Positions 59,679 through 64,000 of a stretch of DNA of 64,000 bases are shown in pieces; the stretch's first letter is position 1; every line of letters starts with the position of its first letter. The stretch comes from Rhodobacteraceae bacterium SB2 (lineage in GTDB: Bacteria; Pseudomonadota; Alphaproteobacteria; Rhodobacterales; Rhodobacteraceae): positions 186,001 to 250,000 of the forward strand of contig LGRT01000018.1 of assembly GCA_001642945.1 (NCBI GenBank), in the 5' to 3' direction. Position numbers and translations under genes: made by a program. Under the pieces are notes generated by a model. The model saw only the letters and a program-made list of their open reading frames with translations, was not told the DNA's origin and did no database searches.

Positions 59679-61211
59679 TTATCCATCTTCTTGAATATCC
59701 AAAGCCAAAGGCGCCGGAGCTTGCGCGCGAAGATCCTCGATTTGAAGCGGGGTTGAGGGTTTGGACAATCGGTTACGCACCACCCAGATCAGCCGCTGCT
59801 CGGCCCGGGTGATCGCCACATAGGCAAGGCGCTTCCAAAGCGGTTGATTGGCCTCGACTCGCCCCATACGCGCAGCCATTTCCAGATCTGGTGCAAAAAC
59901 CTGCACCGTTTCCCATTGGCTGCCCTGCGCTTTATGGATGGTCACGGCCGCGCCATGTAAAAAAGCGGCGCCCATATTGGCCGCAAACGGAATAAACGGT
60001 TCTTCTTCACCGGGTTTTTCAATTTTGATGATAGAAGCCGCTGAAACTTTTGGGTCTTCCGCCCCGATCACGTGCAATTTTGAAAAGCCGGCGCGCCGCC
60101 CAGGCCCCAAATAGACAATTTGCGCGCCTTTGATGAGGCCCCGTGCCTCCAAATCAAGGCGCTTCTTGCGATGTTTCAATGGCAATTCAATCCCATCGCA
60201 AATCAGTGGTTCGCCCTCAAGCAGCTCGGTGTCCGGTGCATCATAAACCCTTCGAAAGGCAGAAATAAGCCGAATTCGGGTGGCATTGCGCCAAACCAGA
60301 ACCGGGCTGCGGGCCATCAGATCAACATCGACGCGCTGGCCCAAAACAACGCGCTCATCGCGCGCGGCATAATGCGATATCATCGCTTCAAAATCAGCAA
60401 ATCCAAGCGCAGGATCACCCAGCGCATGGGCCAAATCCAAGATCGGATTATCCGCATCTTGGCGGTGAACGCGTTGCAGCGTGATCTGCTTTTCTGGTTC
60501 TAATTTTTCAAATACCATTTGGCCTGATTGGTTTACCGGGGCCAATTGCGCCGGATCTCCGAATAAAACCAATATTGGAAAAATTTGCTGTAAATCTTCA
60601 AATTGTCGATCATCCAACATTGAGGCTTCATCGATAAAGCCGATATCCAACGGATCTTCGCGACGCTTCCAGCCGGTAATAAAATCCGAACCGCGCAGGC
60701 CAGCCGCCGCCAGCGCCCCGGGGATAGATTTATTGTTTTGGTAAAACTCAAAAGCGCGCGCCAGGGCCGCCTCGCTTAAATCTTCAATCTGGGGTTTTTC
60801 AGATTGACCGGCCAGCCAATCAGCAATTTTTTCATATTCCGGATCATAAACCGGCGTATAAAGAATGCGGTGAATGGTTGTGGCCGGTACACCTTTCATA
60901 CGCAGCACGCTGGCGGCTTTATTCGTGGGTGCCAAAATCGCCAAACTGCGCTTGGTACGATTGCGCCGCGGTTCATAATCCCCCGACACCACATCAACAC
61001 CGATGCGCCGCATCGCGTGATAAAGTTCCGACAGCAATAAGGTTTTTCCAGAACCCGCTTTACCGATCAAAGCGGTAACCCGGGCATCGCGCTCGCGCCC
61101 CGGCACCAAAAGGTTGTTTTCAAGATCTACGCCAGCGGCGCGCAGCAGCGCCGCCACATGATCATAAGCCTCTGCTTGATCTAAAGAAAGTTCAACCTGC
61201 CGTACCTGCAT
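59679..61211 (-). CDS. RecD/UvrD-type superfamily 1 ATPase, putative helicase
   Basis: This 510-residue SF1 ATPase resembles RecD-like helicases. Walker A is GKAGSGKT at 50-57 (VTALIGKAGSGKTLLLSE). The conserved Q-like opening LSLDQAEAYDHV stands near the N-terminus. APTNKAASVLRMKGVPATTI is motif Ia, GFIDEASMLDD motif II near 190, and LFGDPAQLAPVNQ motif III. TIHKAQGSQWETVQVF and AYVAITRAEQRLIWVV are the C-terminal motifs. It could act in DNA repair or processing. It lies 52 bases downstream of luxI on the same strand, so a shared transcript is possible but no direct link is known. Confidence 0.85.
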   Translation of the reverse strand: MQVRQVELSLDQAEAYDHVAALLRAAGVDLENNLLVPGRERDARVTALIGKAGSGKTLLLSELYHAMRRIGVDVVSGDYEPRRNRTKRSLAILAPTNKAASVLRMKGVPATTIHRILYTPVYDPEYEKIADWLAGQSEKPQIEDLSEAALARAFEFYQNNKSIPGALAAAGLRGSDFITGWKRREDPLDIGFIDEASMLDDRQFEDLQQIFPILVLFGDPAQLAPVNQSGQMVFEKLEPEKQITLQRVHRQDADNPILDLAHALGDPALGFADFEAMISHYAARDERVVLGQRVDVDLMARSPVLVWRNATRIRLISAFRRVYDAPDTELLEGEPLICDGIELPLKHRKKRLDLEARGLIKGAQIVYLGPGRRAGFSKLHVIGAEDPKVSAASIIKIEKPGEEEPFIPFAANMGAAFLHGAAVTIHKAQGSQWETVQVFAPDLEMAARMGRVEANQPLWKRLAYVAITRAEQRLIWVVRNRLSKPSTPLQIEDLRAQAPAPLALDIQEDG

Positions 61212-61263: not shown

Positions 61264-61896
61264 TTACGGCACGGGCACCACGCGCTTACTTGCCCCAAAA
61301 GCCAAGTCAAACCAATGGCTTGAATGTTCCGGCAAAACCTTCGCGCTGCGGGCAACCGTCTGGCGTTGCAAGGGGGAAAAACTCCATAATCCCAGACCGA
61401 TATATGTTTTACCGGAGCCCTGCTCGGCTAAAATCTCAGGGGTTGCCCCGATACGTCGATAGATGCGCCGCATCGTATGATCAAACACAGCCACCGATTG
61501 CTCAACGCCAAACCCAAGCATGACCTCACCCGCCGCCAGCATCAATTTTGACGCGCTATGCTTGAAAGCTTTGGGGGCCAGACAAAACCGCGTAGATTCC
61601 CAGATCAACGGGCTGCTCAGGCTGCTGCCTCCCAGCAAAAAACGGAACTTCTCATTGATCATACAGCGCCCAGTGGTGGGCAGCAGACGCAAAGAGCCCT
61701 CATGCCGACCAAGGTTATTTTCCAAAATCACATAAAGCGGATTAAGCGCGTCATACTCATCGCGCTCAAAGCCATTTTCATCCACATCCACCTGCCATTT
61801 AAGGCGGGTTTTAAATTGGGCGGCACGATCACGAAACATAGTGTCGCGCAAAAGCGGGTGATCAGACAGCTGATCGCCATAAAGATATCTAAGCAA
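61264..61896 (-). CDS. luxI: Acyl-homoserine-lactone synthase (LuxI family)
   Basis: This enzyme makes an N-acyl-homoserine lactone signal from acyl-ACP and S-adenosylmethionine. It has 210 residues. The conserved N-terminal pattern is FRDRAAQFKTRLKWQVD, with Arg22 or Arg24 and Trp34. ERDEYDALNPLYVI gives the Asp residues, LRLLPTTGRCMI the Arg near 70, and IWESTRFCL the Glu and Arg near 99-102. The start is TTG 61896 (MLRYLYGDQL), with AGGGG nine bases upstream, since no ATG fits. It is 83 bases downstream of luxR in the same direction. A long-chain signal is usual in Roseobacter, but chain length cannot be read from sequence. Confidence 0.92.
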   Translation of the reverse strand: MLRYLYGDQLSDHPLLRDTMFRDRAAQFKTRLKWQVDVDENGFERDEYDALNPLYVILENNLGRHEGSLRLLPTTGRCMINEKFRFLLGGSSLSSPLIWESTRFCLAPKAFKHSASKLMLAAGEVMLGFGVEQSVAVFDHTMRRIYRRIGATPEILAEQGSGKTYIGLGLWSFSPLQRQTVARSAKVLPEHSSHWFDLAFGASKRVVPVP

Positions 61897-61979: not shown

Positions 61980-62708
61980 CTAGAGCAAAATCAACCCGCG
62001 GCTAACCGCCAACGAAACCGCATGCGTGGTATTGGCAGCGCCCAATTTATAGCGGGCGCTTTCAATATAGACGCGCAATGTATTTTCCGAAATGCATAAT
62101 GTATGCGCAACTTGCGCCCGGCTATACCCAAGCGCCAGAAATGTCAGCGTTTCATTTTCGCGCGGGGAAAGCACCGGGCTGGGATCTACGACACCCTCAG
62201 CTTCGATATCTAAAATTTTTTTATTAAAATAATGCGCAATTAAAATAAGGTCGCGCCGAGCCGTTTCGATAAAGCCCGCCCATGCCTCATCCGAAGCGTT
62301 ATGACTGATCGTAAACAAAGCGTATTGGCCTTTTGGCCCTCGGATCGGAATAGACAGCCCCTGACGGCCCACCCCATGCTCTAACGCGTCAGCCTGAAAC
62401 GCCCGCGCCGCTTTGCTTGACCAATCAAGATCCTTCCAATCAACGGGGTGAAACCGCTGAAAGCCCCCCAAAACCACCGGATCAATACGAATATAGGATT
62501 GCTGAATATAGCGGCTGACCCAAGCGCCCGAATACGTGCCCACCCCCAGCCGTCCACATTTCGAATTCACCCAATGATAAACCATATGATCAACGGAAAA
62601 TACATCGCGAAATTCTTCAATAACGGATTGAACATCAGCCAGCTGGCTGGCGTTCTCGAGGCGCCCCAGCGTGGGTTCGAAGGTCGTGATCTTTGTGTAA
62701 CGCGTCAC
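61980..62708 (-). CDS. luxR: LuxR-family quorum-sensing regulator
   Basis: This is a 242-residue AHL-responsive transcription factor. The autoinducer-binding domain (about 15-160) keeps the aromatic and Asp residues in YHWVN, AWVSRYIQQSYIRIDPVVLG and WKDLDWSSKAARAFQADA. The C-terminal LuxR helix-turn-helix (about 175-235) shows LSPRENETLTFLALGYSRAQ and SENTLRVYIESARYKL. GTG 62708 is chosen because TAGGGG, overlapping the upstream small gene's stop, stands seven bases before it. A TTG at 62735 would lie inside that gene. It is followed by luxI. DNA target is unknown; no typical lux box was found nearby. Confidence 0.92.
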   Translation of the reverse strand: MTRYTKITTFEPTLGRLENASQLADVQSVIEEFRDVFSVDHMVYHWVNSKCGRLGVGTYSGAWVSRYIQQSYIRIDPVVLGGFQRFHPVDWKDLDWSSKAARAFQADALEHGVGRQGLSIPIRGPKGQYALFTISHNASDEAWAGFIETARRDLILIAHYFNKKILDIEAEGVVDPSPVLSPRENETLTFLALGYSRAQVAHTLCISENTLRVYIESARYKLGAANTTHAVSLAVSRGLILL

Positions 62709-62718
62709 TGCGCAGCCC

Positions 62719-62853
62719 CTAGGTTTTTGCCGCAATTTCCAGTGCAGCCATTAATTGCGCATTGTCTAATTGCAAAGCCAGCCCCTCTAGGCCGTTCTTC
62801 TCAGCGAAAGTACGAAGATCTGAAAGGACATCAATAATCCAATTATGCGTCAT
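62719..62853 (-). CDS. 44-residue small protein upstream of luxR
   Basis: This short frame begins MTHNWIIDVLSDLRTFAEKN and ends QLMAALEIAAKT. It is predicted to form two amphipathic helices with a conserved-looking Trp5 and no signal or membrane segment. It runs from ATG 62853 to a TAG at 62719-62721. The GTG of luxR follows ten bases later, with the luxR ribosome site overlapping this stop, so the two are probably translationally coupled. I recall similar tiny proteins next to LuxR genes in Rhodobacteraceae but cannot confirm this here. It could be a regulatory partner of LuxR, a leader peptide or a simple accessory protein. Confidence 0.65.
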   Translation of the reverse strand: MTHNWIIDVLSDLRTFAEKNGLEGLALQLDNAQLMAALEIAAKT

Positions 62854-62873
62854 AGCGATTCTCACGAAAAATG

Positions 62874-62889
62874 GTTAACAGAGTGTTAA
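62874..62889 (-). promoter_or_regulatory. Perfect CtrA-consensus site upstream of the luxR operon
   Basis: Read on the minus strand, TTAACACTCTGTTAAC matches TTAA-N7-TTAAC, the full CtrA box of alphaproteobacteria. It ends 20 bases before the 44-codon gene. If used as a CtrA-activated -35 region, the transcript would start near or within that small gene. If the operon's promoter lies further upstream, CtrA binding would repress. Confidence 0.6.
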
Positions 62890-63061
62890 ATCTAGGATAG
62901 CAAAGCGTCTGATTTAACGAAATTCGCGTTTTCCAATTCCCCAAAAATAGTGAGGGGTTCGCAATAAACCACTGAAAACCAAAGAACGACCCAAAAAAAG
63001 CTGCACGCCCCCTCTAACAAAAGCGATTCGTTGCAACCTGCCCAAGGCGTCACTTTTAAAT

Positions 63062-64000
63062 CTATAAAACCGCATCCTCAAACGTGCGCAAACCTGCCCG
63101 TGGCGCTTGTACCAAAACGGCCATATTTCCCGGCTTATGCTCGTTGCGGCGCATTTTAATATGCGCGGCGGGAATCTCATCCCAGCCAAAGACTTCGGAC
63201 AAGCAAGGATCTAACCGCCGCTCGACCATAAGTTTATTGGCCGCTGAGGCTTGCTGCAAATGCGCAAAATGGCTACCTTGAACGCGTTTCTGGTTCATCC
63301 AAAGATAGCGTGCATCCAACGTCAGATTATAACCTGTGGTGCCCGCGCAGATCACCACCATCCCGCCTTTTTTACACACGAAAGTCGAAACCGGGAAAGT
63401 GCTTTCACCAGGGTGCTCGAATACAATATCCACATTCACGCCCTTGCCCGTGATCTCCCAAATGGCCTTGCCAAATTTGCGCACCTCGGAGAACCAAGTT
63501 TTATACGCGTCAGAATTCACAACCGGCAATTGTCCCCAGCAATTGAAATCTTTGCGATTGATAACGCCTTTAGCGCCCAAGCTCAGCACAAAGTCGCGTT
63601 TATCTTCATCCGAAATCACGGCAATCGCATTGGCGCCAGCCGTATTGATCAGTTGGATTGCATAAGAGCCCAACCCCCCAGACGCGCCCCAAACCAACAC
63701 GTTTTGCCCCGGCTTAAGATCATGCGGATGGTGCCCGAATAGCATCCGATAGGCGGTCGCCAATGTCAGCGTGTAACAGGCACTTTCTTCCCATGTCAGA
63801 TGTTTAGGGCGCGGCATCAATTGCTGTGATTGTACCGCTGTGAATTGTGCAAAAGATCCATCTGGTGTCTCATAACCCCAAATCCGCTGACTGGCAGAAT
63901 ACATCGGGTCGCCGCCATTGCATTCTTCATCATCACCATCATCCTGATTGCAATGGATCACCACCTCATCCCCGACGCGCCATCTTGTGACCTTTTCGCC
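63062..64000 (-). CDS. ccr: Crotonyl-CoA carboxylase/reductase (5' end outside window)
   Basis: This is the key enzyme of the ethylmalonyl-CoA pathway: it reductively carboxylates crotonyl-CoA with NADPH and CO2 to ethylmalonyl-CoA for acetate assimilation. The visible 312 codons are the C-terminal part, open to the right edge. WGYETPDGSFAQFTAVQSQQ, the NADPH Rossmann segment NVLVWGASGGLGSYAIQLIN and NRKDFNCWGQLP are present. FEHPGESTFPVST then follows, a typical Ccr block with Glu and His near the CO2 site. The stop is followed by 208 bases before the 44-codon gene. It connects to pccBA at the other end of the window through propionyl-CoA and ethylmalonyl-CoA metabolism. Confidence 0.95.
   Translation of the reverse strand, partial: GEKVTRWRVGDEVVIHCNQDDGDDEECNGGDPMYSASQRIWGYETPDGSFAQFTAVQSQQLMPRPKHLTWEESACYTLTLATAYRMLFGHHPHDLKPGQNVLVWGASGGLGSYAIQLINTAGANAIAVISDEDKRDFVLSLGAKGVINRKDFNCWGQLPVVNSDAYKTWFSEVRKFGKAIWEITGKGVNVDIVFEHPGESTFPVSTFVCKKGGMVVICAGTTGYNLTLDARYLWMNQKRVQGSHFAHLQQASAANKLMVERRLDPCLSEVFGWDEIPAAHIKMRRNEHKPGNMAVLVQAPRAGLRTFEDAVL

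Follow-up and report, generated by a model that had tools for sequence, protein, structure and literature searches.

The luxRI locus and its conserved elements

The window, that is, the whole 64,000-nucleotide stretch of DNA that was analyzed, carries a luxRI locus with the gene order ccr, small ORF, luxR, luxI, and helicase. A crotonyl-CoA reductase gene upstream and a helicase gene downstream of luxRI mark the locus as topology B luxRI, and the same order (crotonyl-CoA reductase, luxRI, helicase) is described for the Roseobacter loci of this topology (PMC3824088). The excerpt of that review consulted here makes no mention of the small ORF and its promoter, both of which are seen in the window. 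The genes and the elements between ccr and luxR are listed below; P1 and P2 denote the upstream and the downstream predicted promoter.

59679 to 61211, minus strand: ATP-dependent helicase gene, the downstream neighbor of luxRI
61264 to 61896, minus strand: luxI, with an Autoind_synth domain
61980 to 62708, minus strand: luxR, with Autoind_bind and GerE domains
62719 to 62853, minus strand: conserved small ORF, 44 aa here, a predicted helical hairpin, recognized by codon-position entropy and orthologues
62858 to 62863, minus strand: -10-like hexamer GAGAAT (GAnnnT) of the predicted P2, with A at 62862 as -11 and T at 62858 as -7
62874 to 62889, minus strand: putative CtrA box TTAACACTCTGTTAAC
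62894 to 62902, minus strand: predicted extended -10 of P1, TGCTATCCT (TGnTAnnnT), present in 100 of 107 genera
62920 to 62927, minus strand: conserved element GCGAATTT, close to where the -35 region of P1 is expected
62939 to 62957, minus strand: lux-box-like dyad CCCCTCACTATTTTTGGGG, conserved in an alignment of 122 genera
63062 to 64000, minus strand: ccr, crotonyl-CoA carboxylase/reductase, cut by the window edge (TIGR01751, 625 bits against a cut-off of 378.55)

The initial annotation had reported a perfect TTAA-N7-TTAAC on the minus strand at 62874-62889, 20 bases from the first start codon. Rereading of the sequence confirmed both statements: TTAACACTCTGTTAAC is an exact match, and 20 nt lie between it and the ATG of the small ORF at 62853. 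An in-frame GTG at 62865 lies only 8 nt from the box, and ATG is the start used by relatives. The box doubles as a dyad, TTAACA-GAG-TGTTAA. The genome to which the window belongs encodes one CtrA above the family cut-off (406 bits versus 350), and ChpT is also present.

The small ORF is a protein-coding gene

The small ORF was found in all 80 of the named loci and showed codon-position entropies of 0.89/0.59/1.54; it is a real protein gene under protein-level selection. In relatives, it encodes 65-76 aa and overlaps the luxR start. In the window, the frame ends at a TAG stop at about codon 45, where a genome of the same species (G003, locus L021) and the relatives have GAG, and the conserved part of the small ORF stops near this truncation point. 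The small protein belongs to no Pfam or NCBIfam family, and comparison with PDB structures gave no meaningful fold match (best E 2.4); fold prediction returned a helical hairpin.

The box is conserved at one fixed position

TTAA-N7-TTAA occurs twice in the 64-kb window compared with 0.92 expected from shuffles, 24% of which reach two, and TTAA-N7-TTAAC has 20 matches in the whole genome, many of them within genes, compared with 79 for a reversed control pattern. By themselves, the motif counts of window and genome do not exceed chance. In the genome taken as that of Dinoroseobacter shibae (G038), TTAA-N7-TTAAC is enriched (24 versus 2). A near-identical copy of the box at C28:355990 (L017) was discarded as unlinked, as it lies inside a coding frame.

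LuxR orthologues were identified in 228 of 394 family genomes at E <= 1e-45, and 129 upstream regions, one genome per genus, were then compared. The initial annotation had proposed such an alignment as a check on the box, and the outcome was strongly in its favor: an exact TTAA-N7-TTAA stands at the same place in 107 of the 129 genera, with C as the next base in 99 of those 107. Extra copies of the box in the same upstream regions amount to one or two per about 108,000 positions. It is this conservation at one fixed position that raises the box above chance. Regions taken one per genus share descent, and the control is provided by the neighboring columns, which drift to near-random composition. 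Because column values obtained from box-bearing sequences alone are biased, a second alignment was made of 122 regions anchored on the small ORF, in which presence of the box was not required. Its eight TTAA columns were 92-98% identical and the C after them 88%, compared with 30-77% for the N7 columns and 30-58% for the spacer upstream of the P1 -10. Among the 80 named loci, a set that overlaps the genus set, the box was found in 72 and the full P1-box-P2 pattern in 67.

A chance match without function would fit the finding that the exact motif is not overrepresented in this AT-richer genome, but it has practically no probability left, as the comparative data, with a fixed position kept in 107 genera while the surroundings drift, already refute it. 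The box is, as judged from its sequence conservation, a genuine and ancestrally conserved CtrA site to which CtrA is predicted to bind. Within this luxRI group, the data indicate a single ancestral site.

The exact box is missing in about 22 of the 129 genera, several of which differ from it by one base in one half-site. Loss of ctrA was considered as a cause of box loss and rejected, since all box-less genera tested except one (G201) keep CtrA. In G201, the luxR promoter is intact and no CtrA match was found, yet its assembly is 81% complete, so that the absence of CtrA from this genus is unproven.

An upstream promoter is predicted to start inside the box

Of the 107 box-bearing genera, 100 have a TGnTAnnnT element ending 4-6 nt upstream of the box, compared with a mean of 0.7 and a maximum of 5 in shuffled sequences. 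With the -10 at this distance, the P1 start is predicted to fall within the first TTAA, at approximately 62887. A third in-register TTAA half-site upstream of the box was also considered; none of the 107 genera has TTAA there, which identifies the element at this position as a -10 rather than a CtrA half-site. Further upstream, the lux-box-like dyad has the form CCCC-N11-GGGG and is centered some 60 nt upstream of the predicted P1 start; close matches to it are essentially unique to this position in its own genome. A LuxR protein probably drives P1 via this dyad, a putative LuxR-binding site. The element GCGAATTT between the dyad and the -10 is nearly invariant in the 122-region alignment (G62927 100%, G62925 96%, T62922 98%) and does not match a consensus -35 or the lux-box dyad.

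A predicted downstream promoter with the spacing of mapped CtrA-activated promoters

In Rhodobacter sphaeroides, mapped CtrA-activated promoters start 23-24 nt after the box and have an invariant A at -11, according to the excerpted report (PMC6180460), and the CtrA box of Caulobacter ctrA P2 lies at -39 (PMC4287350). Applied to the window, these known spacings would place the P2 start on the G of the small-ORF ATG, at 62851. The sequence agrees with this spacing (box at -35, A at -11), which most other perfect D. shibae sites lack, and the P2 start is a prediction from it. In 103 of the 107 genera, NAnnnT begins 11-12 nt downstream of the box, compared with a shuffle mean of 13.6 and a maximum of 28. 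Of the 97 sequences that have GA there, 95 have T as the sixth base, and T occupies neighboring positions in 3-30%. A ribosome-binding site does not need T at hexamer position six. Furthermore, the distance of the hexamer from the box varies slightly less than its distance from the ATG (entropy 1.69 versus 2.06 bits). The P2 -10 has no T at position -12. It also shares bases with the ribosome-binding region, and translation may therefore account for some of its conservation. A leaderless P2 transcript starting on the A of the ATG was considered and is not favored, because the distance from predicted start to ATG is variable, by several bases.

The box spans approximately -2 to +14 relative to the predicted P1 start. 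This place would also suit a pure repressor, in which case CtrA~P blocks P1 as the sole real promoter, GAnnnT is a ribosome-binding site, and the outcome is negative quorum-sensing feedback. The P1 extended -10 is indeed the better -10 match, and Caulobacter CtrA sites over a -10 repress (PMC4287350). Nevertheless, we regard pure repression as unlikely: a ribosome-binding site leaves the invariant T four bases past the A (95/97) unexplained, and the orthologous luxR2I2 falls, not rises, in the ctrA mutant of D. shibae, as given in the excerpt of PMC4046655.

Less probable still is the absence of any P2, with CtrA either activating P1 in an unusual manner or, if expression in the D. shibae mutant falls for indirect reasons, with the box only tuning P1. 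The P1 elements are very strongly conserved, and perfect D. shibae sites seldom have the P2 spacing; among the other perfect TTAA-N7-TTAAC sites of that genome, it was found in 5 of 24 strand readings, so that perfect sites did not confirm it as a general rule. However, the distance from box to GAnnnT equals that of the mapped CtrA-activated promoters to the base, as far as the excerpt of PMC6180460 documents them.

Two further observations concern this region and its spacing. A GANTC site (GAATC) at 62857-62861 on the minus strand overlaps the P2 -10. GANTC is the CcrM methylation sequence. It occurs between box and ATG in 38 of the 107 genera, compared with 7 expected from shuffles, an excess suggesting that, in some members of the family, methylation may be an additional means of cell-cycle control. 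In addition, an exact box elsewhere in the same genome (L019, G000:C33:58129-58144) is flanked by divergent small genes, with a lipoyl-synthase-like gene nearby; it shows the P2 spacing, with TAAAGT at gap 12, and may be a further CtrA promoter.

The orthologous promoter of D. shibae

The luxR2I2 locus of D. shibae (G038, taken as strain DFL 12) has the same small ORF, with the box TTAATGTTTCGTTAAC 18 nt upstream of it, and the P1 and P2 elements are also present. In the excerpt of Wang et al. 2014 (PMC4046655), luxR2I2 is reported as most strongly reduced in the ctrA mutant, and strong reduction in the ctrA, chpT, and cckA mutants is given in the excerpted PMC4046655 and PMC6473078. The reduction in the ctrA mutant could be partly indirect. 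The same excerpt of Wang et al. gives two perfect, predicted CtrA sites for the luxR2 promoter. We found a single exact box there that is perfect on both strands, which probably explains the "two" sites. Elsewhere in D. shibae, a perfect CtrA box lies just upstream of an ftsZ-like gene (L266, G038:C1:2556726-2556741).

Another binder of TTAA-type sequences, such as MucR or SciP, might be the main user of the site, these proteins being reported at many Caulobacter CtrA target promoters (PMC4287350). This is improbable, as the distance between the two half-sites, the C at the 3' end (99/107), and a right half of the TTAACCA type are those of the CtrA consensus, and the ctrA mutant phenotype of the D. 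shibae orthologue fits CtrA.

Proposed action of one CtrA site on two nested promoters

We assign a probability of about 0.6 to the reading that one CtrA site serves two nested promoters, activating P2 and covering the start of P1. From the arrangement of the elements, we infer that CtrA~P would bind at the classical -35 position and activate P2, that P2 would start at or just past the small-ORF start codon, and that its transcript would carry luxR and luxI without an intact start of the small ORF. While bound there, CtrA would also cover the start of P1, the promoter presumably under LuxR control, the transcript of which would include the small ORF together with the GAG that serves as its ribosome-binding site. 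CtrA~P would in this way raise luxRI expression and exchange the P1 form of the transcript for the P2 form. If CtrA~P both activates P2 and covers P1, the CtrA-dependent transcript should lack the small-ORF start. Skipping the small ORF might release LuxR from an inhibitor or might change translational coupling, and both are possible.

The initial annotation had offered a choice, CtrA either repressing or driving a start in the small gene. Both halves have a conserved signature, the box over the predicted P1 start for repression and the predicted P2 start at 62851 for activation; instead of one or the other, CtrA probably does both. Its further suggestion, that the small frame is an untranslated leader, would stand for the CtrA-driven transcript only, because the frame itself is a real and conserved protein gene. 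That the two mRNAs form a switch throughout the family, by which the cell-cycle state decides whether the small protein accompanies LuxR and LuxI, is an idea we put forward tentatively, with somewhat less than even confidence. The small protein is conserved and goes unmentioned in the excerpts of the literature consulted on these loci, and CtrA, by its choice of promoter, may determine whether it is produced.

Comparison with known systems

A regulatory loop from CtrA back to luxR, also raised in the initial annotation, has been reported genetically for the D. shibae orthologue (excerpt of PMC4046655) and hence is not new. New are the family-wide conservation and the two-promoter geometry; the action of CtrA on the operon was already reported in D. 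shibae. The small ORF, the two overlapping promoters, and the fixed position across the family are absent from the excerpts of the D. shibae work (PMC4046655, PMC6473078), and no paper on overlapping CtrA promoters at luxR in Rhodobacterales was found in the collection of papers searched. The present findings turn a loosely placed link from CtrA to quorum sensing into a base-resolved prediction for more than 100 genera. According to the excerpt of Wang et al. 2014 (PMC4046655), quorum-sensing-associated CtrA sites are scattered and evolved several times, whereas the conservation of the box speaks against repeated independent origin within this luxRI group. In Ruegeria KLH11, phosphorelay feedback on ssaRI has been suggested (PMC3692519).

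The fla2 promoters of R. sphaeroides, as presented in the excerpt of PMC6180460, start 23-24 nt after the box and have A at -11, as predicted here for P2. They differ in that their starts lie 12-33 nt before the start codon, whereas the start predicted here lies inside it; an overlapping extended -10 promoter, as predicted here, is not described for fla2 in that excerpt.

A comparable arrangement is that of Caulobacter ctrA, for which a single CtrA site activating P2 and repressing the upstream P3 has been proposed (PMC4287350). There, one full site would activate the downstream start from -39 and repress the upstream one, and a like double action is proposed here. The upstream start lies 14 nt after the 5' end of the box in Caulobacter ctrA, whereas that predicted here falls within the box, at about +2. 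Moreover, unlike in Caulobacter ctrA P2/P3, the downstream start predicted here would remove the start codon of a separate small gene.
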